Below, in pieces: positions 14,450 through 26,378 of a stretch of DNA of 61,093 nucleotides. Position 1 is the stretch's first letter. Each line of letters opens with the position of its first letter. This DNA comes from an uncultured Oscillospiraceae bacterium (lineage in GTDB: Bacteria; Bacillota; Clostridia; Oscillospirales; Oscillospiraceae), in the NCBI GenBank assembly GCA_944386885.1, contig CALXCU010000165.1, forward strand, positions 1-61,093, read 5' to 3'. The position numbers were made by a program, and so were the translations under genes. The notes beneath the pieces were generated by a model. That model was not told where the DNA came from and ran no database searches. It saw nothing but the letters and a program-made list of their open reading frames with translations.

Positions 14450-15323
14450 CCAGGATCCAAGGCCAATCGGGAGTCTGAGACTTTTATAAAAGATATTTAA
14501 GCGCAAAGATTCAAGCCATGAATCAATTCGGCGCGGAATTTACCATTTACCATCTGCAGTAGCCGCCTATTTACACGACCTTATGATACCGCCTCTCTAT
14601 TTTCATCGAGCGTATATTTTGGGACATTTGAATGTCAGTATTACCTATATTATTCCAAAAAGGGCGGACAAATTTACCATAGAAAAATGGAATAAAAAGT
14701 AAATCATAGCATAATAACCATAAAACAATCTATTTTCGCGATAAAATTATTTCTGTTTTACATTTATTAAGGAATTAGTTGCTTTTAATTCAATTTTTTA
14801 GAAAAAATAGGTGGGATAATTGGGCATAATGCTGATTATTACACAGCAATGAAGTAAATTTCTGAACCTTTCGAAAAACTGTATGATTTATTTCAGATTT
14901 ATAAAAGGAAAACTGAAATAATAAAGGTTATATTCGCACTGTATATACAAATTGTGGCGAGGCTAGACCTTTTGCCCGAAAAGTGCTATTATATACAAAC
15001 AGAAGATATAACATAGTTTCTATTATGTAGTTATCAACAAAAATAGCTGAAAGGGGATTATTGTCAAAATTCGTTTTGTTCCAAAGAGCGATGCAGGATG
15101 AATGAATGGGGTCTTAACAGAATAGACTTTTCTGAATGGATCGAACTGCGGAACTACGAAAAAAATTGCAAATCTTGCTGAGCCGCAGATACAAAAGGGG
15201 GCTGAAGGCCAAGAAATTTTCAGAAGCTTACTCTGTCGGTTTCAGCGGGGCGAGAAAGGAGTGAGAAAGGGAAGTCCATTGTAGAAAGCGTTTTAACAAA
15301 TTGAAACGATCGAGGAGGAGACT
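14450..15323. other. AT-rich intergenic region without genes (874 bp)
   Basis: No open reading frame of note on either strand. Base composition is strikingly AT-rich against a GC-rich surrounding. Two inverted repeats stand out: GACATT-TG-AATGTC at 14633-14646, and TTATTTCAG (14888-14896) with CTGAAATAA (14913-14921) around a 16-nt loop. CTGCGG and CCGCAG arms near 15146-15188 could form a hairpin in the leader of the next gene. It probably holds the promoter and regulatory sites for the surface-polymer locus. A decayed insertion remains possible. Confidence 0.6.
14964..14992 (+). promoter_or_regulatory. candidate sigma-A promoter for the C69/cap-like locus
   Basis: TAGACC (14964-14969), a 17-nt spacer, and TATTAT (14987-14992). 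Transcription from here would give a ~320-nt leader before the gene at 15324. The -35 matches 4 of 6 positions, so this is only a candidate. Confidence 0.35.
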
Positions 15324-17171
15324 ATGAGAACTGTCTTGAAAAGAGCTGCGAGTCTGGCGGTTGCCGGCGTTATGCTGGGGACCAGCACTATCAGCGCCAG
15401 CGCTTGTACGGTCCTGGCTGTCGGTAAAGATGCCTCTGATACCGGTTCGGTGTTGGTATCTCATACCTGCGACGGTTGGTATGATCACCGCATTCAGATT
15501 GTAGAGGGCGGTACCCATGCTGCTGGGGAAATGGTGGATATTTACCGGGACCCCTGTACGGCAACCAAGAGTGAGGTGACTCTGGTCGGACAGATCCCTC
15601 AGGCGGAGGAGACCTATACTTATTTTAATATCGGCTATCCCTTTATGAATGAAAAGGGCGTCGTGATGAGCGAGTTCACTTGGAGCGGCCGCAGTGAAAT
15701 CAGTAGCCCCGAGGGCCTGTTTGTCATTGCCAACCTGGAGATGCTGGGCCTGCAGCGTGCCGACACCGCTCGTGAGGCTGTTGAGATCATGGGTGCGCTG
15801 GCTGAGGAGTACGGCTATGCCGACGGCGGCGAGTGCCTGCTGGTGGCTGACCAGAATGAAGTGTGGATCTTTGAGATCTGCGGCGGTGGTCCCCTGTGGA
15901 CCAGCGGGAGCGAAGCCCCCGGCGCTCACTGGGCGGCCCGGCGCGTGCCCGACGACCAGGTGTACACCGGTGCCAACCGCTCCCGCCTGGGCGTGATTGA
16001 CTTTAACGATACGGAAAATTATATGTGGTCCACTGACATTACCGCCCTGCCCGAGCAGATGGGTTGGTGGAGTGAAGGCGAGGACTTCAACTATACTCAG
16101 ATCTTTAACCCCCAGCCCTACGGCTATGAGTTCTATGCCAGCCGCCGCGAGTGGCGGGTGTTCAGCCTGCTGGCTCCCTCTCAGGAGTTCCCGGTGCTGG
16201 ACCGGCAGAGCCACTATGACTTTACCATCGTCCCTGACGAGCTGGTCTCCGTCCAGGACATCATGGACATTTACAGCGACCACCTGGAGGGCACCGAGTA
16301 TGACATGACCGAGGGTCTGGCCGCCGGCCCCTTCGGCAATCCCCACCGCTGGCAGGTCACCGGCGACCAGAAGCCGGAGAACGCCGCCGATGAGGATTGG
16401 GAGCGCGAGATCGCCCAGTTCCGCTGCACCTACAGCTTCGTGGCGGAGCTCCGTCCTGATATGCCCGGCGAGATCGGCAGCGTGCTGTGGTTTGGCGAGG
16501 ATTGCCCCGATACCACCGTCTATACCCCCATTTATGCCGGTACTACCGCGGTTCCTGAGGAGTGGTCCGGCGGTGACCGGAAGTCCTTCGATCAGAACTG
16601 CGCCTGGTGGGCCTTTAACTTCATCGGCAACTATGCTCAGCTGAACTGGGACGCCATGTACCCTGTCATCCGGGAGAAGAAGGCGGAGATCGAGGGCGAG
16701 TATTTTGCCGAGCAGGCCGATGTGGATGCCCAGGCTCTGGAGCTCTACAACACCTCCGGTGTGGACGCCGCGAAGGAATACCTGACCGACTATGTGTATA
16801 CCAACCTGGAAGAGCTCAACGACGAGTGGTGGGCATTTGCCTGGCAGCTGGTAGGCACTTACTATGACGGTATGCGCATCGAGGAGGATGGCTCCTCCAC
16901 CACCCTGGGATACCCCACCGAGTGGCTGGAAGAGGTCGGCTTCGGGGCCACCAGCTTGGCCGACAAGGGCGTGAGCGTGGAAACTGAGGAGCCCGAGGCT
17001 ACTGATGCTCCTGAGACTGAGCCGACCCAGGCTCCTGCAGATACCACTCCTTCTGAGCCTGATGTCAACACCACCACCAGCAATTCCACTGCCCTCGTGA
17101 TCGGCTCGGTCTGCGTGATTATTGTAGCCATCGCTGCAATCATTATCCTGCAGAAGAAAAAGAAGAGCTAA
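15324..17171 (+). CDS. C69-family dipeptidase, exported and membrane-anchored
   Basis: 615 residues. A signal peptide (1-27) ends ISASA and is followed by Cys28-Thr-Val-Leu. In C69/PepD-type Ntn hydrolases the cysteine exposed by processing is the nucleophile, so signal cleavage would create the active site. The C69 core runs to ~500 (GGECLLVADQNEVWIFE, HWAARRVPD). A Thr/Pro/Glu-rich stalk follows, then a C-terminal membrane helix (~590-610) with a KKKKS stop-transfer. It would act outside the cell on dipeptides. AGGAGGAG precedes the ATG. First gene of the surface-polymer locus. Confidence 0.88.
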   Translation: MRTVLKRAASLAVAGVMLGTSTISASACTVLAVGKDASDTGSVLVSHTCDGWYDHRIQIVEGGTHAAGEMVDIYRDPCTATKSEVTLVGQIPQAEETYTYFNIGYPFMNEKGVVMSEFTWSGRSEISSPEGLFVIANLEMLGLQRADTAREAVEIMGALAEEYGYADGGECLLVADQNEVWIFEICGGGPLWTSGSEAPGAHWAARRVPDDQVYTGANRSRLGVIDFNDTENYMWSTDITALPEQMGWWSEGEDFNYTQIFNPQPYGYEFYASRREWRVFSLLAPSQEFPVLDRQSHYDFTIVPDELVSVQDIMDIYSDHLEGTEYDMTEGLAAGPFGNPHRWQVTGDQKPENAADEDWEREIAQFRCTYSFVAELRPDMPGEIGSVLWFGEDCPDTTVYTPIYAGTTAVPEEWSGGDRKSFDQNCAWWAFNFIGNYAQLNWDAMYPVIREKKAEIEGEYFAEQADVDAQALELYNTSGVDAAKEYLTDYVYTNLEELNDEWWAFAWQLVGTYYDGMRIEEDGSSTTLGYPTEWLEEVGFGATSLADKGVSVETEEPEATDAPETEPTQAPADTTPSEPDVNTTTSNSTALVIGSVCVIIVAIAAIIILQKKKKS

Positions 17172-17198
17172 TCAGCTAATCCAGAGGTTAATTCAAAA

Positions 17199-17243
17199 TT
17201 GGGGTACGGCCTCTTTACTGTCCCGAGACGGCAAAGAGGTCCC
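17199..17243 (+). other. intercistronic hairpin between dipeptidase and lipoprotein genes
   Basis: CCTCTTTACTGTC (17208-17220) pairs with GACGGCAAAGAGG (17225-17237) apart from one A/C position and one G-U, and GGGG (17199-17202) can extend it with CCCC (17239-17242). Only CCCTTTC follows, so it is a weak terminator or a processing/stability element. Confidence 0.5.
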
Positions 17244-17265
17244 CCTTTCGTGAGGAGATTTTAAC

Positions 17266-17967
17266 ATGAAAAACCAGAAGAAATTAATTGCCTCCCTTCT
17301 CGCCCTGGCGATGATGCTGGGCCTGGCCGCCTGTAGCGGCGGTTCCACCGATGGTAGTACCACTCCTTCTACCGCTCCTTCCACGGAGAGTACTGCTCCT
17401 GCTGATGACGGCGCCGACGAGAGCACTGCTCCCGCTGACGACGACAGCACAGGCGGCAGCACCGCCGCTACCCCCGCTGAGTTTGACGGTAAGGTCCACG
17501 GGCCCTTTATCATGACTACCTGCGGTCAGTCCACCGGCTCGGTCATGCTGCACATGGTGGCCGGCCAGATTGGCGCCACCTCCACCGACGATCACGAGTT
17601 GTCTGCGGATACCTTTGATCCCGGCGATGCCAAGACCCTGATCGTCACTACCGGAACTTCCGGCAAGGGCATGGGCGCCGCGGGCACCGATGTGGACGAC
17701 GAGATCGCCCGCTGCACCGCCGTTATTGAGGCCGCCCGTGAGGCTGGCCTGACCATCGTCTGTGCCCATGTGGAGGGCATGTCCCGCCGTACCGATGCCA
17801 ACGACCAGGCCTCCATTGATGCCATTCTGCCTCTGGCCGACGTAATCATGGTGGTTGAGGAGAGCGACAGCGACGGCCTGTTCTCCGATTATGCCGCTGA
17901 GAATGATATTCCCATCATTATTGCGAAGGATGCCCTCGGCATGAGCGAGTACATGGCCGCGGAATAA
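17266..17967 (+). CDS. DUF6305-like surface lipoprotein
   Basis: 233 residues. A type II signal peptide with lipobox LAAC places the lipidated cysteine at position 23. A low-complexity Thr/Ser/Ala/Asp linker (~24-70) leads to a compact alpha/beta domain: FIMTTCGQSTGSVM, LIVTTGTSGKGMGAAGTDVD, VEGMSRRTDANDQASID and VVEESDSDGLFSDYAAEND. I recognise this as the DUF6305 pattern from memory. The domain resembles a nucleotide-free Rossmann-like binding fold, but no ligand is known. Its conserved Thr-Thr-Cys and Gly-Thr-Ser-Gly-Lys-Gly loops may bind the substrate of the neighbouring permease. AGGAG precedes the ATG. Confidence 0.75.
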   Translation: MKNQKKLIASLLALAMMLGLAACSGGSTDGSTTPSTAPSTESTAPADDGADESTAPADDDSTGGSTAATPAEFDGKVHGPFIMTTCGQSTGSVMLHMVAGQIGATSTDDHELSADTFDPGDAKTLIVTTGTSGKGMGAAGTDVDDEIARCTAVIEAAREAGLTIVCAHVEGMSRRTDANDQASIDAILPLADVIMVVEESDSDGLFSDYAAENDIPIIIAKDALGMSEYMAAE

Positions 17968-17988
17968 TGATCCTGTGAGTTTTGAACA

Positions 17989-18020
17989 GGGCCGCGGGCG
18001 TGCATACCACCCCGCGGCCC
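17989..18020 (+). other. intercistronic GC-rich hairpin
   Basis: GGGCCGCGGG (17989-17998) and CCCGCGGCCC (18011-18020) form a perfect 10-bp stem with a 12-nt loop. No T-run follows; the next bases lead straight to the ribosome-binding site of the permease gene. This fits an mRNA stability or segmental-expression element better than a terminator. Confidence 0.6.
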
Positions 18021-18039
18021 GGTCTGAGGAGGTAATCTT

Positions 18040-19377
18040 GTGACTATGTTTCAGCACTCCTTGGCAGTGATCATCGTCGCCATCCTCTGTTTTGCCTTGG
18101 CGAAGAAGCTGAAAGCCTGTACGGAAATTGCACTGTTGACGACGGCTATCGGCGCACTGCTGACGCATCTGATTCTCCCAATGGGAGTAGACCCGCGTTC
18201 TCCCCTGCCCTTTACGGAGATCATCCGGCATCTGGTTGAGGGTACCTTCAACTACTTTGATGTATGCATGACCTTCCTGACCGCTACGTTCTTCATGACT
18301 CTGTATAAAGAGGCTGGAGGCATCAGCTATCTGGTCCGGCAGATCGTGGGCCGCTTCTATAAGAAGCGTGTGCTCTGCCTGCTGCTCCTGTTGGTGGTGA
18401 TGATGGTCCCCGGCGCCGTCACCGGCTCTGGCGCCACTACGGTGCTGACCGTGGGCGGCCTGGTGGGTGCGGTACTGGCCACTATGGGTGTTAAGGAAGA
18501 CCGCCGTGTAGCGCTGGTATTTATGTTGGCCGCCATGAGCGCTGCCTGCCCGCCCATCAATCTGTGGACTATGATGGCCGCCGCCGGCGCCAATATGCCC
18601 TATGTAGGCTTTACCGCGCCTCTGGCCATTTTGTCCATTGGCGGCGCCCTGTTTGCAACCTTCTATCTGACCCGGGGTACCAAGAGCGATTCTGAGGTCA
18701 GCGAGGTGCTCGCTACCCTGCCCGAAGTTCCCAAGGGCTGGAACGCACTGCGCGCTTTTGTCCCCTTTGTGGTGATGCTGGTGCTCATTCTGGGCGCCCG
18801 CGTGATTCCCGCCTACTGGCCTGTCATCGGCCTGCCCATGATTTTTATGCTCAGCGGCGCCGCGGTGCTGATTTGCAGCCCCAAGAAGGTCAATGTGCTG
18901 GAAGTGGCCGTCACCACCGTGAAAAACCTGAAGGAACTGGTGGGCATTATGGTCGTAGTCGGCATTTTGAACCAGATCCTGACCCTGACCGGTGCCCGCG
19001 GCCTCATCTCTCTGGGTGTGGTCGTTCTGCCGATTTGGCTGCTCTTCGCCGCGCTGTGGATTATCCTCCCCGTATCCGAGGGTGTGCTACAGTACGCCGT
19101 GGCTCCTCTGCTGGGTGTGCCGCTGATCATGCTCTTCAACATGAAGGGTTTCAACGCCATCATCGCGCTCTCCGCCTGGTCGGTAATGTGGCCTGTGGGC
19201 GACTGCCTGCCTCCCACCGCTGTGGTGGGCCGTGCCGCTACCATGCAGCTGGACTACAAGGGCAACTATTATAAGGGTTTTGTGAAGGAAGCTCTGGTGC
19301 CCATGCTGTTTGTTCTGGCGCTTTGTACGCTGGCCATGATTTTCAACAACCAAGTGGGCGATCTGCTGGGGGTGTAA
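18040..19377 (+). CDS. ion-transporter superfamily permease (DctM/TRAP-large-like)
   Basis: 445 residues, start GTG at 18040 with GAGGAGGT 6 nt upstream (an ATG at 18046 is the alternative). About 11-12 membrane helices. Two similar hairpin motifs are expected in this superfamily: GAVTGSGATTVLTVGGLVGA in the first half and the PVSEGVLQYAVAPLLGVP region in the second. No periplasmic TRAP binding protein or small TRAP subunit is adjacent, so it may be a sodium- or proton-coupled carboxylate carrier. Genomic context suggests an acidic substrate such as glutamate or a glutamyl peptide (inference). Confidence 0.75.
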   Translation: MTMFQHSLAVIIVAILCFALAKKLKACTEIALLTTAIGALLTHLILPMGVDPRSPLPFTEIIRHLVEGTFNYFDVCMTFLTATFFMTLYKEAGGISYLVRQIVGRFYKKRVLCLLLLLVVMMVPGAVTGSGATTVLTVGGLVGAVLATMGVKEDRRVALVFMLAAMSAACPPINLWTMMAAAGANMPYVGFTAPLAILSIGGALFATFYLTRGTKSDSEVSEVLATLPEVPKGWNALRAFVPFVVMLVLILGARVIPAYWPVIGLPMIFMLSGAAVLICSPKKVNVLEVAVTTVKNLKELVGIMVVVGILNQILTLTGARGLISLGVVVLPIWLLFAALWIILPVSEGVLQYAVAPLLGVPLIMLFNMKGFNAIIALSAWSVMWPVGDCLPPTAVVGRAATMQLDYKGNYYKGFVKEALVPMLFVLALCTLAMIFNNQVGDLLGV

Positions 19378-19380
19378 AGT

Positions 19381-19554
19381 ATGGATATTTTGGTTATAAT
19401 TAACGCCCTTTTTACAATCCTTACCTACGCCACCGCGCTTTTCTTCCTGATTGCGATTATCCGTGCATTTGCCAGGACGAAAAACCGACAGGAAGCGCTG
19501 GTGTACTGTGTTATCATGATCCCTTTCATTCTACGTCTGCTTCGCTTGAAATAA
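19381..19554 (+). CDS. 57-residue membrane protein between permease and M14 gene
   Basis: The ATG at 19381 lies 3 nt after the permease stop, with a GGGGGTG site inside the permease 3' end. It runs 57 codons to TAA at 19552-19554, 15 nt before the M14 start. One strongly hydrophobic N-terminal helix (MDILVIINALFTIL onward) is followed by a basic stretch ARTKNRQ and a second hydrophobic segment, ending LRLLRLK. Tight spacing on both sides argues that it is translated. It could be an accessory subunit of the permease. No family recognised. Confidence 0.7.
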   Translation: MDILVIINALFTILTYATALFFLIAIIRAFARTKNRQEALVYCVIMIPFILRLLRLK

Positions 19555-19569
19555 GGGGGAGGGATTGCG

Positions 19570-20748
19570 TTGAATAAGCTCAAGCTGAACGTTGATACCG
19601 TAAAAGCGATTGGAATCATCATTATCACGTTTTGTATGGCGGTGGCTGGCTACCTGTTCTGGGAACACCGCAATTACAAGGAGCCCGTGGTGGTGAGCGA
19701 ATACATTACTGAAGTCAAAAAACTCAGCGACTACAGCGATGTGGTCAAAGGCACGGTCAACGACTGCAACGTCTATATTTTTGATAGCGGCGTGGAAGGC
19801 GGCTGCTACCTGATTTGGGGCAGCACCCATCCGGAAGAGCCTGCCGGCGTCATGGCGGCCGAGCTGATGGTGGAAAACCTAAAGGTTACCCAGGGCAAGG
19901 TCATCATTATTGACCGTGAGAACAACAGCGCCTCTACCAACAGCCGTGTGGGCGAGGCCTATCCCCGTTTCTTCACCTATCAGACCGATTGGGGCACCAA
20001 GGTCTGGCGGTTTGGAGACCGTCATGCCAATCAGCTGGACTCCTGGCCTGACCCGGAGGTCTATATCCACTATCCCAGTGGACAGACCCTGGCCAACGTG
20101 GACATCCGCAATACCAACCGGAACTGGCCCGGCAAGGCCAACGGCCTGCTGACCGAGCGCACCAACTACGCCGTCATGCAGCTTATCGAGCAGGAGGGCG
20201 TGGACATGACCCTGGACCTGCACGAGGCGGAGCTGGAGTACACCGTGGAGAACACCATCGTGGTCCATGAGAAAGGCCAGTCGGTGGCCGCCATGGTCTC
20301 CATGATGCTGACTTCTGAGACTTTTGACGTGCCCGTCGGCATGGAGTTTTCGCCCACTGCCCTCCACGGCCTGAGCCACCGGGAGGTGGGTGACCACTCC
20401 GACGCGGCCTCCTATCTGGTGGAAGTGGCCGAGCCCATGTTGGACCGCATCCGCGGCATCACCGATGAGCAGCTGCTCATGAGCGGTAAGGACCGCTTTG
20501 TCATGATGGCCGGCGAGCGCGGCCTGCTCTATGCCCCCATCGACGAGAATGGCTGGCCCATCGAGAAGCGCGTGGCCCGTCACATCGCCGTGGCCACGAA
20601 GATTATTGAGGTCAACAATACGGTCAATCCGGACCAGACCATCACCATCGAGGGCATCCCCACCTACGAAGAGATGATGGAAAACGGCCTGGGCAGCTAC
20701 TACCACAACCCTGAGACCGCCCCTGCGGACCGGGTGTACTACGACTAA
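19570..20748 (+). CDS. M14-type metallohydrolase, succinylglutamate desuccinylase/aspartoacylase-like
   Basis: 392 residues, TTG start at 19570 with GGGGGAGGG 6 nt upstream. One N-terminal membrane helix (~12-28) anchors an outward domain. Zinc-site motifs fit the AstE/ASPA branch of M14: GSTHPEEPAG (H87, E90), DIRNTNRNWPG (~178-188, the Asn-Arg substrate-binding motif) and TLDLHEAE (H218). Such enzymes cleave N-acyl amino acids or a C-terminal residue. Placed upstream of CapB/CapC, it may trim glutamyl chains or release their ends (inference). Confidence 0.82.
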   Translation: MNKLKLNVDTVKAIGIIIITFCMAVAGYLFWEHRNYKEPVVVSEYITEVKKLSDYSDVVKGTVNDCNVYIFDSGVEGGCYLIWGSTHPEEPAGVMAAELMVENLKVTQGKVIIIDRENNSASTNSRVGEAYPRFFTYQTDWGTKVWRFGDRHANQLDSWPDPEVYIHYPSGQTLANVDIRNTNRNWPGKANGLLTERTNYAVMQLIEQEGVDMTLDLHEAELEYTVENTIVVHEKGQSVAAMVSMMLTSETFDVPVGMEFSPTALHGLSHREVGDHSDAASYLVEVAEPMLDRIRGITDEQLLMSGKDRFVMMAGERGLLYAPIDENGWPIEKRVARHIAVATKIIEVNNTVNPDQTITIEGIPTYEEMMENGLGSYYHNPETAPADRVYYD

Positions 20749-20777
20749 TACGGAAACAGGCCCATCCAGAGACATGC

Positions 20778-20811
20778 GGAAAGCCCTTCGTCTTATGGCG
20801 AAGGGCTTTCC
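20778..20811 (+). other. intercistronic hairpin upstream of capB
   Basis: A perfect 13-bp stem: GGAAAGCCCTTCG (20778-20790) with CGAAGGGCTTTCC (20799-20811), loop of 8 nt. No T-run follows; the next bases are the capB ribosome-binding region. It lies inside a longer in-frame reading of capB, a reason to prefer the downstream start. Confidence 0.65.
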
Positions 20812-20836
20812 GAGGGATGGGGGCATGGAGGGCGGT

Positions 20837-21925
20837 ATGCTTGTTTTTTCCCTTTTGCTGACGGCGGGATACCTGGTTTGGCTGTTTTATGAGGGCTATG
20901 CGGCCCGGCGGGCCCGGCGCTCTTTCCGGCATGTGATCCATGTCAACGGTATCCGCGGGAAGACCGCTACCTGCCGCCTGCTGGACGCACATCTGCGCCG
21001 GGGTGGTTACAAGGTCTTTACCAAGACCACCGGGACTGCCCCAGCGTATATTGACACTGCCGGGGTGGAGCATCCCATCCGGCGGCGCGGGGCGGCCAAT
21101 ATTATGGAGCAGTGGCATGTCCTCCAAAAGGCTTACCGGGAGGGAACTGAGATCCTGATTGTGGAGTGCATGGCCGTCTCGCCCGTCCTCCAGAAAGTCT
21201 CCCAGGAGAAGCTGGTGCAAGGGGACTGGAATGTCATTACCAACGTGCGCTATGACCACATCTTTGAGATGGGGGAGTCCCTGGACGAGATTGCAGAGAG
21301 CCTGAGCAGTACCATTCCGCAGGGCGGAGTCCTGTTTACAGGAGATCCGGACTTTTTTCCTTTTTTTGAGGGGAAATGCACAGCCCTGGGGACTGAGGCA
21401 ATTCTCTGCCCGCCGGAGGGCGGGGCGGGGAGCGAAAACCAAGCCATCGCCTGGGCCATTGGCGCGCGGCTGGGGATTTCGCCGGGGCCTCTCCCGGGGG
21501 AGGCGGAAGGCTACCGCAGGGACTTTGGCGCATGCAAATGCTATGATCTGCCGGGGAAGAAGTTCCTAAACCTCTTTTCCGCCAATGATCCCGAGTCCTC
21601 TCAGATGCTTCTGCGGGAGAATCTGCCCGGGGAGGAGGAGCTGACGCTGATTTACAACCACCGTGTAGACCGGCTGGACCGGCTGCTGTTGTTCCTGCGC
21701 TACTTCTTTCCGCAGGTCCCCTACCGGAAGCTGATCCTCATCGGGGAGGGGCGGCGCCTGGCGCTGCTGCGGCTCCGGCGGGCGGGATTGACCCATGTGG
21801 AGACGGCGGCAGGCTGGCAGGAGGCCCTGGCCCGCGCGGACACACCGGCGGTAGTCGGCCTGGGCAACATCAAGGGAGAGGCGTACGAGATGATTACAGC
21901 TCTGGAAAGCGGGGTAAGCGCATGA
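20837..21925 (+). CDS. capB: poly-gamma-glutamate synthase subunit CapB/PgsB-like amide ligase
   Basis: 362 residues from the ATG at 20837 (GGAGG close upstream; in-frame ATGs at 20825 and 20774 lie before it, the latter inside the hairpin region). An N-terminal membrane helix (1-19) is followed by a Mur-ligase-like ATP-binding domain: VIHVNGIRGKTATCRLLDAH, the GKT P-loop typical of CapB. Then come VFTKTTGT, ILIVECMAVSP and WNVITNVRYDH, all classic PgsB/CapB signatures. It would ligate glutamate (or a related residue) through the gamma-carboxyl group at the inner face of the membrane, with CapC. Its stop overlaps the capC start. Confidence 0.93.
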   Translation: MLVFSLLLTAGYLVWLFYEGYAARRARRSFRHVIHVNGIRGKTATCRLLDAHLRRGGYKVFTKTTGTAPAYIDTAGVEHPIRRRGAANIMEQWHVLQKAYREGTEILIVECMAVSPVLQKVSQEKLVQGDWNVITNVRYDHIFEMGESLDEIAESLSSTIPQGGVLFTGDPDFFPFFEGKCTALGTEAILCPPEGGAGSENQAIAWAIGARLGISPGPLPGEAEGYRRDFGACKCYDLPGKKFLNLFSANDPESSQMLLRENLPGEEELTLIYNHRVDRLDRLLLFLRYFFPQVPYRKLILIGEGRRLALLRLRRAGLTHVETAAGWQEALARADTPAVVGLGNIKGEAYEMITALESGVSA

Positions 21926-22350
21926 ACGAACTGGCCCTGCTTTCCTTGGTCATTACCCTGATCTTTACCGAAGTGACCCAGCTGGTGCCCGGCGGGATTG
22001 TGGTTCCCTTTTACTTCGCATTATACCTGGAGGAACCGGTAAAGGTCCTGGCCACTCTGATTTCGGCCCTGGTGGCCGTGGGAGTGGTCAAGCTGATCGG
22101 CGGCGTCACCATCTTATATGGGCGGCGGAAGTTCGCCTTATATATTATCATTGGCCTATTAGAAAAGGCCCTGTTCACCTATTTTTACTTTGGTGATTCT
22201 TACATGTTCTACAATCTGTCCATGACCATCGGCTATCTGGTCCCGGGAATTTTGGGCGGGCAGATCGAAAAACAAGGGTGCGGGAAGACGCTGTGCGCAC
22301 TGGCTGTGGTGGTGCTGCTGATCAAGACTGTGCAGCTGATATTGACATGA
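21922..22350 (+). CDS. capC: poly-gamma-glutamate biosynthesis membrane protein CapC/PgsC
   Basis: 142 residues with about four membrane helices. EVTQLVPGGIVVPFYFALYL is the conserved CapC/PgsC segment. CapC is the integral membrane partner of CapB and part of the polymerising/export unit. It overlaps capB by 4 nt (ATGA) and the next gene by 4 nt, so the three are tightly coupled. Confidence 0.93.
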   Translation: MNELALLSLVITLIFTEVTQLVPGGIVVPFYFALYLEEPVKVLATLISALVAVGVVKLIGGVTILYGRRKFALYIIIGLLEKALFTYFYFGDSYMFYNLSMTIGYLVPGILGGQIEKQGCGKTLCALAVVVLLIKTVQLILT

Positions 22351-23471
22351 AAAGACAACCAATCAAAAAGACACAGATGATGGTACTGGCTTTGGTCCTG
22401 GCGGTGCTTCTCCTGGGGTGGGGACTGCTGGGCGCGACAAAGAGTACGGTCCCGGCGGCGGATTACGGTCAAAAGCTGCGCGCCGCAGAGATGACCCAGG
22501 CTTGCTTAGAGGAGATCCGGCAGCTGAAAGAGGAGAGGGGCGTTCCCATCAGCAGTGTCAATGATATCAATGACACCGGCGTGGTGGGGCAGGACTACTC
22601 CTTTATTACCACCACCCTGGGCAATTTGGAGGCCAAGCGCACCTCCACCAATCCCAATATGGCGGCCATGGTGGTGGATATGTTCCATGAGCTGGGACTC
22701 CAACCCGGGGACAAGGTGGCGGTCAATTGCTCGGGCTCCTTTCCAGCGCTGAACATTGCGGTCATGTGCGCCGTGGAGGTGATGGAGCTGGAGCCCATGC
22801 TGATGACCTCCTTCGGCTCCTCCACCCACGGGGCCAACGATCCAGAGCTGACTTACTTGGATATGGAGTACGATCTGCTCCAGAAGGGGCTGTTGAAGCA
22901 TAAAAGCGACTATTTCTCCATCGGCGGGCGGGAAGATGTGGGCGCCGAGATGCCGGAAGCAGTGGTAAACGAGATCGTGGACCGGCTGACCGGTTACGGC
23001 TACACATTCTTCTATCATGACGGCCTGTTGGACAATATCCGGGAGCGCTATGAGATGTACCGTGCATTTGGAGACGTCAAATGCTTCATTAACGTGGGCG
23101 GAAATGACGTCTCCTTTGGAAACAGCAAGGTGATTGTCTACAGCGACGGGGGCATTCTGTCCCATCTGCCGGAGAATGACCACTCCACCGGCCTGGTCCA
23201 GCTCTTCCTGGCCGAGGGGACCCCGGTGATCCATTTGCTCAACATCAAGAGCCTGGCTACGGCCTATGGCCTGCCAATTGACCCCGTCCCGCTGCCCGAG
23301 CCGGGCGAGGGAGGTGTCTATTATACCGATACCTACCGAAAGGAGTTGGCTTGGGGCACCTTGGCTGCCGCAGCGGTTGTATTCTATCTGGGCCGCGGAG
23401 CCTTTTTCCCCCAAAGACTGCCTGAGACTGTCCGCCGCGCAGGAGCGCGGCATGACCACAAGGAGCTATGA
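22347..23471 (+). CDS. PgsW-type 'poly-gamma-glutamate system protein'
   Basis: 374 residues from the ATG overlapping the capC stop. An N-terminal membrane helix (~11-27) is followed by a ~300-residue extracytoplasmic domain (SSVNDINDTGVVGQDYSF, KVAVNCSGSFPALNIAVM, INVGGNDVSFGNSK). A second membrane helix lies near the C-terminus (GTLAAAAVVFYLG). I recognise the domain order as the family annotated poly-gamma-glutamate system protein, found in cap operons that lack capA. Its biochemical role is not known. The loops are Ser/Gly/Asn-rich and no catalytic triad was obvious. Confidence 0.8.
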   Translation: MKRQPIKKTQMMVLALVLAVLLLGWGLLGATKSTVPAADYGQKLRAAEMTQACLEEIRQLKEERGVPISSVNDINDTGVVGQDYSFITTTLGNLEAKRTSTNPNMAAMVVDMFHELGLQPGDKVAVNCSGSFPALNIAVMCAVEVMELEPMLMTSFGSSTHGANDPELTYLDMEYDLLQKGLLKHKSDYFSIGGREDVGAEMPEAVVNEIVDRLTGYGYTFFYHDGLLDNIRERYEMYRAFGDVKCFINVGGNDVSFGNSKVIVYSDGGILSHLPENDHSTGLVQLFLAEGTPVIHLLNIKSLATAYGLPIDPVPLPEPGEGGVYYTDTYRKELAWGTLAAAAVVFYLGRGAFFPQRLPETVRRAGARHDHKEL

Positions 23472-23472
23472 A

Positions 23473-24651
23473 ATGAAACGAACGACGATTGCACTGACGA
23501 TGATGCTTGCCCTACTGCTCACAGCCTGCGGCGGCGAGCCCGATACCAGGAATGACGCTGCGGCGGTGGACAATGTATACTATGAAATTACCGGCGTGGA
23601 CCCGGAGGAGACGGTACTGGTGCTGGACGGAAACGAAATTCCCGCCCAGCTCTACTGCTATTGGACGGCCTTCAATTGCAGCGCGTTGGAGTACCAGGTC
23701 AACCTCTACCACGATTACTACGGCATGTATGAGGAGCTCTTTTCCGAGGACGGCGTATTGGACTGGAACGCCCAGTTCCCCGATTCCGAGCTGACCCTGT
23801 CCCAGTATGCCAAGGATATGACGGAGGACACGATCTTTTTCTACGCCGCCATTGAGAATTTGGCCGGGCAGTACGGCGTGGAGCTGAGTGAGGAGGACCA
23901 GGCGGCCATTGAGGCCGACCGCCTGGAGATGGTGGACTCTCTGGGCGGGGAGGAGGCATTCCAGGACTACCTCTATGAGACCGGCTTGAGCGAGGACAAC
24001 TTGAAGCGGGTCATGTCTACCTCCAGCCTGCTGGATGGGTTGATCCGGCTGGCCGGAGAAGCGGGGAGTGAGCTCTATCTCCCGGAGGAAAACTATTCCC
24101 AGTATTTACGGTATACGGATTTCATCCTGATCCCCAAGGACGCGGACGGAAGTGAAGAGGAGCTCCAAGCCGGGCGGCAGGCCGCCCAGGAGCTGCTGGA
24201 GCAGCTCAGCCAGGCGGAGGACAAGGGGGCTTTCTTGGACCAACTGGCCCAGGCCGGGGATGCGGAGAGCGAAGCGAGCACCGGGAATCAGGTCTATAGC
24301 GACTATTTCTATACGCCGGGGACCATGCCGGACGCTTTTGAGGAGGCGGCCGCCGCCCTGGAGCCGGGAGAACTGAGCGGGGTGGTAGAGGCGGACGACG
24401 GCTTCTATCTCATTCTGGGGCGGTCTCTGGAGGAGGGCCTAGAGGAGTATCCCGAGCAGAAGGACCAGCTCTTGCAGGCATATGTGGTCGCGCAGGCAGA
24501 GGATTACCAGAGCAGCATGGAAGTAGAACGCCGGGGGACTCTCTCGGAGCTGGATGCGGGGACGTTCTATCAGGATTACCTGGACAAAATGGCGGAGCGG
24601 GATGTAGAAGCGGCCACCGATATCCTCACAGAGGAGAGCGCCGCGCCTTAA
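23473..24651 (+). CDS. PrsA/parvulin-like foldase lipoprotein
   Basis: 392 residues. Lipobox LLTAC puts the lipid on Cys19. The start at 23473 has AAGGAG 7 nt upstream and lies 1 nt after the preceding stop. The architecture resembles PrsA/SurA: an N-terminal helical chaperone region, then a parvulin-like stretch at ~215-320 (YTDFILIPKD, FLDQLAQAGD, ALEPGELSGVVEADDGFYLI), and a C-terminal helical part. It probably folds or stabilises exported proteins of this locus. The parvulin domain is divergent, so isomerase activity is uncertain. Last gene before a strong terminator. Confidence 0.8.
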   Translation: MKRTTIALTMMLALLLTACGGEPDTRNDAAAVDNVYYEITGVDPEETVLVLDGNEIPAQLYCYWTAFNCSALEYQVNLYHDYYGMYEELFSEDGVLDWNAQFPDSELTLSQYAKDMTEDTIFFYAAIENLAGQYGVELSEEDQAAIEADRLEMVDSLGGEEAFQDYLYETGLSEDNLKRVMSTSSLLDGLIRLAGEAGSELYLPEENYSQYLRYTDFILIPKDADGSEEELQAGRQAAQELLEQLSQAEDKGAFLDQLAQAGDAESEASTGNQVYSDYFYTPGTMPDAFEEAAAALEPGELSGVVEADDGFYLILGRSLEEGLEEYPEQKDQLLQAYVVAQAEDYQSSMEVERRGTLSELDAGTFYQDYLDKMAERDVEAATDILTEESAAP

Positions 24652-24689
24652 AAATAAAGCCCTCTGTGTTGCTGATACGCCTATCTATG

Positions 24690-24723
24690 GAGGAGCGGGC
24701 GCCCTATGGGGCGCCCGCTCCTC
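24690..24723 (+). terminator. strong terminator closing the cap-like locus
   Basis: GAGGAGCGGGCGCCC (24690-24704) and GGGCGCCCGCTCCTC (24709-24723) give a perfect 15-bp stem with a 4-nt loop, followed by TTCTCTTC and, further on, a run of eight T. It separates the surface locus from the ECF sigma gene. Confidence 0.85.
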
Positions 24724-24751
24724 TTCTCTTCATTCTTTTTTTTCAGCTAGG

Positions 24752-24816: not shown

Positions 24817-25314
24817 GTGGTTTGTACGGAAGGGACGTTGGACCGGGCCGAGGCGGTGCGGTTGGTGGAGACCTATTCTGACCTGATTCTGCGCCTGAGT
24901 TACTCCTATTTAAAGAGTACGGAGGACGCCAAGGATATCTGCCAGACGGTCTTTTTAAAGCTGCTGGAAAAGCCGCGGACCTTTGACTCCCCGGAGCACG
25001 AGCGGGCCTGGATCATCCGTGCGGCGGCCAATGCCTGCAAGGACGTGCTCAAGAGCCACTGGCGCAGGACCACTGTGGAGATGGATGCGGCCGGGCAGGT
25101 GCCCGCGCCGGAGCCGGAGGAGGGGAGCCTCCTTGCGGCGGTGGGGCTGCTGCCCCCCAAATACCGGGCGGTGATCTACCTCTACTATTATGAGGGCTAT
25201 ACCGCCAAGGAGATCGCCCATATGCTGGGGGAGAACCCGGCCACCGTGGCGACCCGGCTGAGCCGGGGAAGGGCCAGACTGAAGACCATGCTGGAAAGCG
25301 AGGGAATGGCATGA
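24817..25314 (+). CDS. ECF (sigma-70 family) RNA polymerase sigma factor
   Basis: 165 residues. Sigma region 2 (YSDLILRLSYSYLKSTEDAK, DICQTVFLKLLEK) and region 4 (GLLPPKYRAVIYLYYYEGYT, AKEIAHMLGENPATVATRLS) are clear. It directs RNA polymerase to stress-type promoters. The GTG at 24817 is almost on top of its AAAAGGA; the in-frame TTG at 24838 with GGAAGGG upstream is a credible alternative and would remove 7 residues. It overlaps the DUF4179 gene by 4 nt. Confidence 0.9.
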   Translation: MVCTEGTLDRAEAVRLVETYSDLILRLSYSYLKSTEDAKDICQTVFLKLLEKPRTFDSPEHERAWIIRAAANACKDVLKSHWRRTTVEMDAAGQVPAPEPEEGSLLAAVGLLPPKYRAVIYLYYYEGYTAKEIAHMLGENPATVATRLSRGRARLKTMLESEGMA

Positions 25315-26378
25315 ACGACTATCAAAAGAGTATGTATGCGCTCCGCTTTACACCGGAGCAGAAGGAAAAGATGGTAGAGGACCTGATGGCCACCGGAACA
25401 ACCCGCCGGCGGAGAACGATTCCTCTGCGCAGGATCGTATCTGTGGCCGCGGCCGCGGCGTTGGTGCTGGCCCTGGGGGCGGGGGCTGGAGCCTCCGGGG
25501 TACTCCAGAGCGCGGGGGATGTCTTTGCCAGCGTGTTCGGCGGGGAGCCCGCTCAGACGGAGATCATCAATCAAATCGGCTACCCCATTGGGGCCAGCGC
25601 CAGCGCCGATGGCATCACCATCACTGCCGACGCCATTGTGGGAGACACCTACAGCTATGCCATTGTCTATACCATAGCGCGGGATGACGGGGAACCCTTG
25701 GCGGAGCATTTGGAGCCCAACGAAAACGGCCTGCTGCCCCTGAGCTTCAGCCAAGGAGGCGCCAGCATCTGGCACCTGGGCGGGATGCACGGCGGGACAT
25801 ACTTCTTTGACGCCGACCCCAGCGACAACGCGGTGCAGTATGTGGAGCAGATGAGCGCCGACTCCCCCCTGAGGCCGGGCACCGCCCGGGCGACCTTCCG
25901 GGAGCTGAACATGTGGACAGGGGACGGCATGGCACAAAAGACCACCCTTGCGGAGGGACCTTGGCGGCTGAAGTTCGACTTTGCCTTTGAGGACGCCGCG
26001 GTGAGCCTGCCTGCCGGGCAGACCTTCACCCTCAACGGCATGGAGGCCACGGTGGACGCGGTCTTGCTCTCCCCGCTCTCCTTCCAGGTGACCTACACCG
26101 TGCAGGATGAGCTGGAGTGGAGTGCCACCCATGACGAGAACGGACAGATGAATGCCCACGACAAGGAGCAGATTCGGCGCTATTTTGAATCTCTGCCCCT
26201 GTCCCTTCAGATGAAGGACGGAAGCACCTTGGATCTGAGCAGCGCGGGCGGCAGCATGGATCCCCAGAAGGGCAAGACGGTCTGTCAGAAGAGCAATGTG
26301 TTCTCCTCTATCTTGGATTTGGGCCAGGTGGAGAGCCTCACGGTGGGCGGCGTGGTCATCCCCGTAGATGTGGAATAA
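25311..26378 (+). CDS. DUF4179 membrane protein, probable anti-sigma factor
   Basis: 355 residues. A cytoplasmic N-terminal segment (~1-40: FTPEQKEKMVEDLMATG, then a run of arginines) is followed by one membrane helix (~43-65, AAAAALVLALGAGAG) and a large outside beta-rich domain. This is the layout of DUF4179 proteins encoded beside ECF sigma factors. Its start overlaps the sigma stop, so coupled synthesis as a regulator pair is likely. The signal it senses is unknown. Confidence 0.8.
   Translation: MNDYQKSMYALRFTPEQKEKMVEDLMATGTTRRRRTIPLRRIVSVAAAAALVLALGAGAGASGVLQSAGDVFASVFGGEPAQTEIINQIGYPIGASASADGITITADAIVGDTYSYAIVYTIARDDGEPLAEHLEPNENGLLPLSFSQGGASIWHLGGMHGGTYFFDADPSDNAVQYVEQMSADSPLRPGTARATFRELNMWTGDGMAQKTTLAEGPWRLKFDFAFEDAAVSLPAGQTFTLNGMEATVDAVLLSPLSFQVTYTVQDELEWSATHDENGQMNAHDKEQIRRYFESLPLSLQMKDGSTLDLSSAGGSMDPQKGKTVCQKSNVFSSILDLGQVESLTVGGVVIPVDVE

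Follow-up and report, generated by a model that had tools for sequence, protein, structure and literature searches.

A predicted gamma-glutamyl reclaim module adjoins a CapA-less polyglutamate synthase unit in a conserved Bacillota locus

The window analyzed here, a 61,093-nucleotide stretch of DNA from a Flavonifractor-group bacterium, contains a locus of nine plus-strand genes in which genes predicted to serve polyglutamate synthesis are paired with those for two hydrolases predicted to act at the cell surface, one lipoprotein, and one transporter; this pairing recurs in other Bacillota. On balance, we favor a two-module locus. In one module, CapB, CapC, and PgsW would build and export a gamma-linked glutamate chain; in the other, a C69 peptidase, an M14-clan hydrolase, a DUF6305 lipoprotein, and a permease would likely cleave this chain outside the cell and reclaim it. 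The polymer product, the specificity of the C69 peptidase, and the direction of transport are each predictions. The features of the locus are as follows:

14964–14992, plus strand: weak promoter-like site upstream of C69 (9/12 consensus matches, which does not exceed chance level)
15324–17171, plus strand: C69 (Cys-Ntn) peptidase (PF03577)
17266–17967, plus strand: DUF6305 lipoprotein (PF19823)
18040–19377, plus strand: DctM-like permease (PF06808 or PF03606 on relatives)
19381–19554, plus strand: 57-amino-acid membrane protein (alignment of 15 relatives)
19570–20748, plus strand: M14-clan AstE/AspA-like hydrolase (family-profile matches, motifs)
20837–21925, plus strand: CapB/PgsB gamma-glutamyl ligase (TIGR04012; start from alignment with relatives)
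21922–22350, plus strand: CapC/PgsC membrane subunit (TIGR04011)
22347–23471, plus strand: PgsW, third gene of the synthase unit (TIGR04332)
23473–24651, plus strand: PrsA-like PPIC foldase (PF00639)
24689–24724, plus strand: strong terminator-like hairpin 3' of the ninth gene (16 pairs, 13 of them G-C, T-rich tail)

All nine genes lie where a sequence-only reading of this DNA had placed them, between 15324 and 24651 on the plus strand. Gaps between them are at most 94 bp, and 4-bp overlaps join CapB to CapC and CapC to PgsW; the start codons of CapB (20837), PgsW (22347), and PrsA (23473) were refined. The hairpin is a pattern match, and 8.8 such sites of any strength are expected in the stretch.

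CapB and CapC score above the equivalog cut-offs for polyglutamate synthase (236.7 bits against 222.7 and 104.7 bits against 96.45, respectively), and PgsW reaches 351 bits against a cut-off of 100. The structure model of PgsW (pLDDT 91.9) contains an N-terminal helix at residues 8–30 and a C-terminal helix at residues 332–348. This protein could be assigned to no fold, a point against the favored reading. PgsW had been taken for an extra partner; it is instead the third gene of a CapB-CapC-PgsW polyglutamate-synthase unit and occupies the position of CapA. This three-gene unit resembles, by description rather than by sequence, Francisella capBCA and the CapB-CapC-CapA (PgsF) unit of Cloacimonadota. 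In the available part of one report, Francisella CapA bears the TIGR04332 product name (PMC5362203); PgsW thus shares its product name with the third gene of a locus for which the accessible portion of a review calls the function of that gene open. The excerpts available for the two operons mention no hydrolase-permease module (PMC4688374, PMC13082233), and a search of an open literature library found neither DUF6305 nor TIGR04332 in any paper.

One finding from Francisella counts against the favored reading: the available text of one study reports that capB and capC are not needed for the LVS capsule (PMC4688374). A capBCA locus that carries the PgsW-type product name and reportedly does not make this capsule (excerpts of PMC5362203 and PMC4688374), along with the absence of a classical CapA, would suit a short product: CapBC-PgsW would decorate a lipid, peptide, or wall unit with a short gamma-glutamyl tag instead of making a long polymer, and the hydrolases would recycle that tag. 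We regard such a product as very improbable, given that CapB and CapC exceed the polyglutamate synthase cut-offs and that the flanks of 19 loci contain no recurrent acceptor-making gene.

The absence of CapA and CapD, claimed earlier for the locus, extends to the draft genome of the window, which is 97.5% complete. A Pfam scan of the nine proteins found no CapA (PF09587). The single PF09587 match in the draft genome is borderline (26.6 bits, or 28.4 with its neighbors, against a cut-off of 27); this protein carries Metallophos and 5_nucleotid_C domains and scored 25.2 bits on a second scan. We therefore rejected it as a hidden CapA and consider it a 5'-nucleotidase-type protein. No match to GGT/CapD (PF01019) was found in the draft genome by a search that was positive in 8 of 14 control genomes. 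Among 29 genomes that encode PgsW, 18 contain a PF09587 protein scoring above 100 bits and 11 contain none above 37 bits; none of the 29 has a CapA on the PgsW contig at a distance of 10 kb or less. CapA was accordingly rejected as a co-varying partner: PgsW genomes can do without it, although many encode one at another site. Two observations had been named beforehand as counting against the sequence-only reading, a co-varying capA or capD and a loss of linkage, and neither was made in the window's genome. The locus provides a possible build for polyglutamate loci that lack CapA.

The genes had been expected to stay linked in relatives, and they do so across the phylum. The same eight genes (C69, DUF6305, permease, 57-amino-acid protein, M14, CapB, CapC, and PgsW) occur in 15 of 17 PgsW loci from species genomes, in three arrangements of two blocks, and constitute a conserved eight-gene cassette. 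The ninth gene does not belong to this set as had been proposed. Although the PrsA-like protein matches Rotamase (PF00639; 39.6 bits against 21.7), it is linked in just 9 of the 17 loci, on either strand, and was rejected as a member of the system in favor of a local addition. In a survey of 398 genomes of the phylum, DUF6305 was present in 23 of 25 PgsW genomes (Fisher p 1.7e-22, not corrected for relatedness); among CapC genomes without PgsW, it was present in 1 of 10, on a separate contig. The count of PgsW places within 10 kb (18/26) leaves out G266, G241, and G428. Four of the 25 PgsW genomes have no module adjoining the synthase, which counts against the favored reading.

The C69 peptidase scores 202 bits against a PF03577 cut-off of 23. 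It does not reach the NCBI equivalog of the C69 family dipeptidase (NF033678; 176.5 bits against 250), which also counts against the favored reading. Its signal sequence extends to Cys28 (first base 15405), and a membrane segment lies near its C-terminus at residues 591–609. Such a segment is present in 18 of 40 full-length C69 proteins, so this mode of surface anchoring is not general, another point against the favored reading. In other lineages, GGT, a member of the CapD family, occupies the slot of C69, mostly directly upstream of DUF6305; six GGT genes in this slot score 471–594 bits. Across 39 PgsW loci, which include near relatives that are not independent, C69 was found in 25, GGT in 8, both in none, and neither in 6 (L002–L018, L021, L022, and L025–L044; L093–L096 were left out, and the repeat rows L019, L020, L023, and L024 were dropped). 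GGT also lies within 5 kb of 27 of 65 DUF6305 places, where approximately 1.1 would be expected. This exchange suggests gamma-glutamyl substrates and fits extracellular cleavage of gamma-glutamyl bonds. Indeed, available portions of two papers describe GGT-family enzymes that break down gamma-PGA and can free glutamate for use (PMC6506827, PMC4928254); in Bacillus subtilis, Ggt frees glutamate from gamma-PGA as a source of carbon and nitrogen (PMC4928254, same portion). The predicted substrates of this clade's C69 enzymes are gamma-glutamyl compounds. Our literature search, which covered sources in part, returned no report of a C69 enzyme acting on gamma-glutamyl bonds, and this counts against the favored reading.

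In outline, the locus is like pgsBCA(E) together with pgdS and ggt of Bacillus subtilis, a synthase with outside hydrolases. It differs in that PgsW stands for CapA/PgsA, C69 for ggt, and an AstE/AspA-type M14 enzyme for PgdS; permease, DUF6305, and the 57-amino-acid protein are added, and everything lies in one locus. CapB, CapC, and a linked Ntn hydrolase are also common to capBCADE of the Bacillus anthracis type, and the GGT-type relatives share the CapD family. In contrast to capBCADE, the window's draft genome has a permease module and no detected CapA or GGT/CapD, and anchoring is described for capBCADE. According to the available parts of PMC6506827 and PMC4928254, the capsule of Bacillus anthracis is both anchored and shortened by CapD, which is a GGT, and GGT adjoins classical CapBC loci as well (L083, L085, L088, and L089). 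The C69 and M14 enzymes might similarly shorten the chain or attach it to the envelope, with permease and DUF6305 serving only to balance glutamate or dicarboxylate. We judge this role in surface attachment or remodeling to be improbable: satellite loci without any synthase pair the same hydrolase set with the permease, which indicates that these hydrolases are not tied to polymer attachment.

The remaining components can be placed in the favored two-module reading as follows. DUF6305 (143 bits with PF19823) has a lipobox Cys at 17332, and its structure model predicts a single alpha/beta domain with pLDDT >90 over most of residues 71–233. It is fused to an AstE/AspA domain in three loci (L025, L026, and L027). 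The permease of the window has 12 hydrophobic segments by a simple hydropathy count, as the claim of a 12-helix protein required, and matched no Pfam model at 0.1. It was not matched by DctM (PF06808), whereas four of eight linked relatives score above the cut-off, and some of its closest relatives carry DctM or DcuC (PF03606); by sequence relationship, it is probably of the DctM/DcuC type. DUF6305 lies within 4 kb of 56 of 60 permease places, and M14 lies within 4 kb of all 56 permeases in fetched loci. The 57-amino-acid protein, which has two hydrophobic segments and also adjoins the permease in three satellites without CapB, is likely a partner of the permease. This set recalls the TRAP transporters (DctPQM), in which a small membrane protein and an external lipoprotein accompany a DctM-like permease. 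Unlike in those systems, the Pfam scan found no DctP-type binding protein among the nine proteins of the window; DUF6305 is present instead, with no DctP-family match and one modeled domain, the small protein has two hydrophobic segments, and hydrolases belong to the set. The locus L062 contains a DUF6305 that scores under its threshold.

The M14 protein of the window falls below the Pfam cut-off (PF24827; 16.9 bits against 25). Its family profile matches the AstE/AspA-type structures 2qj8, 3cdx, and 6twm (2.4e-14), and the zinc ligands (H-x-x-E and D-x-H-E) and an Asn-Arg motif are invariant in the family alignment. Large M14 relatives retain D-x-H-E in 38 of 38 cases, Asn-Arg in 37 of 38, and the G-x-x-H-x-x-E pattern in 36 of 38. 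An N-terminal membrane anchor spans residues 13–31.

These features suggest a cycle. CapB and CapC, by family membership, would link glutamate through gamma-amide bonds, and PgsW, predicted to be membrane-anchored and outward-facing, may assume the role of CapA in release or export, as its position implies. The substrate of AstE is succinyl-glutamate, and gamma-Glu-Glu contains the same kind of N-acyl-glutamate bond; on these chemical grounds, the anchored M14 enzyme may take off terminal glutamate. C69, which stands in the slot of other lineages' GGT, would finish the gamma-glutamyl pieces. Linkage suggests that DUF6305 captures the product and passes it to the permease, which would import glutamate or gamma-glutamyl pieces if it works in the direction of its family. 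In other lineages, DUF6305 may report the product to a histidine kinase. Of 20 fetched loci, all from genomes without PgsW, 19 have DUF6305 next to genes for a histidine kinase and a response regulator, which makes sensing a likely second role; the profiles for GGT, histidine kinase, response regulator, and small M14 came from the surveyed loci themselves, and the two-component profiles still matched in 11 of 12 non-seed DUF6305 loci. If the cycle is real, some anaerobes keep a rechargeable outside store of glutamate rather than a one-way capsule, and DUF6305, an uncharacterized family, gains a testable place in gamma-glutamyl metabolism.

The sequence-only reading had envisaged a self-contained cycle of making, trimming, and re-import. 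Its outline is upheld by linkage, the exchange with GGT, and the DctM/DcuC-type permease. Strict self-containment is not, since the DUF6305-permease-M14-C69/GGT module is found without CapBC. The C69-DUF6305-permease-M14 module changes side, flips strand, duplicates, and occurs many times over in places that lack CapBC; 18 such satellite stretches were fetched, and G544 has nine permease places. These modules leave room for scavenging as the primary role: the module would feed on gamma-glutamyl or N-acylated glutamate compounds of others, and CapBC-PgsW would adjoin it through shared glutamate dependence and control. Glutathione-type peptides and foreign polyglutamate are named as substrates in this alternative. 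Several modules are frequently present per genome, and in genomes without PgsW, DUF6305 lies beside two-component genes and near peptide-transporter-like genes. We nevertheless consider scavenging first to be unlikely. The window's genome has a single permease of this family and a single DUF6305, both beside CapBC, and the permease tree shows at least seven switches in linkage to CapBC, spread over both the GGT and the C69 clade, which is more than shared control needs. This tree is a quick build that warns of long branches; the one-change count excluded two permeases that have GGT as well as C69 close by and three that have no such neighbor.

A broader extension of the favored reading can be offered tentatively. 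Bacillota may have an undescribed class of gamma-glutamyl salvage systems, comprising a DUF6305 lipoprotein, a DctM-like permease, M14, and an exchangeable Ntn hydrolase (GGT or C69), and several lineages may each have tied one to a CapA-less synthase, thereby banking glutamate outside the cell as polymer and withdrawing it when needed. The module is described in none of the titles and abstract openings returned by our literature search. Recurrent extra neighbors in 19 loci comprise three sets in Anaerotruncus-type loci, which correspond to GGT and two-component genes; one further ORF family recurs in three of the 19 loci.

The window, contig C165, comes from a draft genome that spans 2.38 Mb and is 97.5% complete. 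Nine genes run in one direction from 15324 to 24651 of the window with short intergenic gaps and overlapping synthase genes, and a terminator-like hairpin of 16 pairs lies 3' of the ninth. The Cys-Ntn peptidase C69, DUF6305, the M14-type enzyme, CapB, CapC, PgsW (TIGR04332), and the PPIC-type foldase PrsA were placed by Pfam, NCBIfam, or family profile. The permease gave no direct Pfam match; PF06808 (DctM) or PF03606 (DcuC) is present on some of the best 120 of its 1099 relatives, and among 8 linked relatives a scan put 4 over the PF06808 cut-off. Beyond the hairpin (24817–26378) lie Pfam-assigned genes for a sigma-70 family (ECF-like) factor and a DUF4179 protein, a possible regulator pair.

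A single search of species genomes by PgsW alignment yielded 17 loci, and the window proteins were then used as queries. The first eight genes (C69, DUF6305, permease, 57-amino-acid protein, M14, CapB, CapC, and PgsW) occur together in 15 of these loci; in L008, the contig stops within C69. The sequence-only reading proposed a linked nine-gene neighbourhood, which stands for these eight but not for PrsA, linked in just 9 of the 17. Gene order is that of the window in 13 of the 15 loci with all eight genes. The CapB-CapC-PgsW block is placed first in Sedimentibacter L016, and the synthase and module (C69 or gamma-glutamyltransferase, DUF6305, permease, M14) blocks are divergent in L015. Anaerotruncus L017 and L018 are without C69 and the 57-amino-acid protein and contain a second, small M14. 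Genome G266, a single contig, carries two tandem copies of the five-gene run from C69 to M14 beside one CapB-CapC-PgsW (L022:2605-16742), with identical permeases; these genes therefore move as a unit. The genome search showed one TAA in the matched frame at each DUF6305 place of L022, yet a separate listing found open frames there.

Carriage of the cassette is patchy. Of 250 family genomes, 4 exceeded the DUF6305 cut-off; of 197 order genomes, 2 did so for DUF6305 and 2 for PgsW. CapB-CapC-PgsW shares a stretch with DUF6305 in three other family genomes and in order genome G168. Among 398 phylum genomes, DUF6305 and PgsW tend to occur together: 46 genomes score over the DUF6305 cut-off, 25 over that of PgsW, and 23 over both (Fisher p 1.7e-22, for related genomes that are not independent). 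Module genes adjoin the synthase in 19 of the 25 PgsW genomes (in G631 and G648, only as far as the contig reaches). Four (G508, G645, G679, and G707) show none beside it, the G508 contig ending immediately upstream of capB, and the contigs of G697 and G702 are too short to judge. CapC was found in 34 phylum genomes (30 over the cut-off); 10 have CapC without PgsW, one of which contains DUF6305 on a separate contig.

In comparing these loci, we noticed that eight PgsW loci without C69 contain a gamma-glutamyltransferase (GGT; PF01019, the CapD family), positioned as follows.

GGT position in fetched PgsW loci without C69
Directly upstream of DUF6305: L017, L018, L021, L035, L038, L039, L040
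Downstream of M14: L029

Six of these genes score 471–594 bits against PF01019 and the L040 gene scores 585 in the genome search; the L018 call rests on a profile built in this analysis. Both genes scanned against the NCBIfam GGT equivalog passed. Across 39 PgsW loci, C69 occurs in 25, GGT in 8, both in none, and neither in 6, in four of which DUF6305 falls outside the contig view. The genome search found no GGT in the window genome, G428, G241, or G657. GGT is present at least once in 25 of 29 PgsW genomes, so many C69-type carriers have one elsewhere in the genome. In a quick tree built from 57 permeases, 52 rows carry a GGT or C69 partner label and this label switches a single time, so the Ntn hydrolase follows the permease clade; CapBC linkage changes at least 7 times, so permeases of both clades have joined or left CapBC repeatedly. 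GGTs degrade gamma-PGA starting at the amino terminus and can free glutamate for use (PMC6506827, PMC4928254). No other evidence points more strongly than this GGT exchange to gamma-glutamyl bonds as the target of the module, and hence probably of C69.

The most probable reading of these observations is a cycle in which polymer would be made, trimmed outside the cell, and reimported as glutamate. By family membership, CapB-CapC would form gamma-linked glutamate, and PgsW, judged also by position, would mediate release or export. The anchored M14 enzyme, whose zinc-site motifs are conserved, would by its chemistry remove terminal glutamate, and C69 would finish gamma-glutamyl pieces, as the GGT exchange suggests. 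Linkage and transporter family suggest that DUF6305 binds and the permease imports the products.

The main rival is that the module scavenges gamma-glutamyl compounds from outside, because it exists in many copies without CapBC. Eighteen such satellite stretches contain no CapB, CapC, or PgsW, and most have DUF6305, permease, and M14 with GGT or C69 (L080 is without permease; L082, at a contig end, has just GGT and DUF6305). The permease search of the 29 PgsW genomes found 60 places in 27 genomes, 56 of them within 4 kb of DUF6305; conversely, 59 of the 65 places with DUF6305 have a permease at most 4 kb away, and 27 have a GGT at most 5 kb away, where a crude estimate predicts about 1.1. M14 lies within 4 kb of all 56 permeases in the fetched loci, GGT or C69 of 53, and DUF6305 of 55, the last figure being biased because loci were picked by DUF6305 or PgsW. 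DUF6305 and an AstE/AspA domain form a single protein in L025, L026, and L027, confirmed in all three. Against scavenging, the window genome has a single DUF6305 and a single permease of this family, both adjoining CapBC. Genome G544 (L030, L065-L068, L081) contains nine DUF6305 and nine permease places, an expansion resembling transporter families tuned to many substrates.

The locus would work like B. subtilis pgsBCA, pgdS, and ggt, but its functions are brought into one locus and its parts are largely unrelated. We did not assign it to capBCADE or pgsBCAE operons because CapA and CapD were both sought and were absent from the locus, as originally noted; the one borderline CapA-family match in the window genome belongs to a 5'-nucleotidase-type protein. 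Among 5.39 million open-access papers, none mentions DUF6305, PF19823, or TIGR04332; the TIGR04332 product name occurs in one, and other words starting with PgsW come from unrelated fields. We rate the locus as a variant of polyglutamate loci not described before, and the salvage module may itself be an undescribed system.

Of the 10 CapC loci that lack PgsW, 8 were scanned for neighbours; CapA (PF09587, 85–264 bits) adjoins CapBC in 6. In the 29 PgsW genomes, no contig has a PF09587 match less than 10 kb from PgsW; thus, PgsW fills the place of CapA. The high-confidence PgsW model (pLDDT 91.9) is an alpha/beta domain with a flanking helix at each terminus, and structure comparison gave no clear match. 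One paper lists Francisella CapA under the product name that NCBI gives TIGR04332, a likeness by name (PMC5362203). A review describes capB and capC as dispensable for the LVS capsule (PMC4688374), by analogy a warning against assuming a capsule as product. A CapB-CapC-CapA (PgsF) operon is described for Cloacimonadota in a further paper (PMC13082233). In L084 (7362-8207) and L092 (7302-8261), a PF05908 poly-gamma-glutamate hydrolase directly follows CapB-CapC, with neither CapA nor PgsW among the genes listed; by gene content, this arrangement appears to be a third type of CapBC locus. In L089 (4190-6784, minus strand), an 864-residue open frame directly after CapC has a GGT domain at residues 371–854 and no Pfam family at 0.001 in its N-terminal half.

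DUF6305 is also linked to two-component genes. A kinase/regulator pair follows PgsW in L017, L018, L021, L038-L041, L043, and L044; in L025-L027, the pair separates PgsW from the module. Of 23 sampled genomes with DUF6305 and without PgsW, 20 were fetched; histidine kinase and response regulator genes occur on the DUF6305 stretch in 19 of the 20 loci, the kinase within 31 bases after DUF6305 in 17. Linkage to both permease and histidine kinase suggests that DUF6305 is a ligand binder common to transporter and kinase. In these loci (L045-L064), the DUF6305 lipoprotein gene comes first, then kinase and regulator, often near peptide ABC-transporter-like genes, and the set is possibly a new kind of sensing unit.
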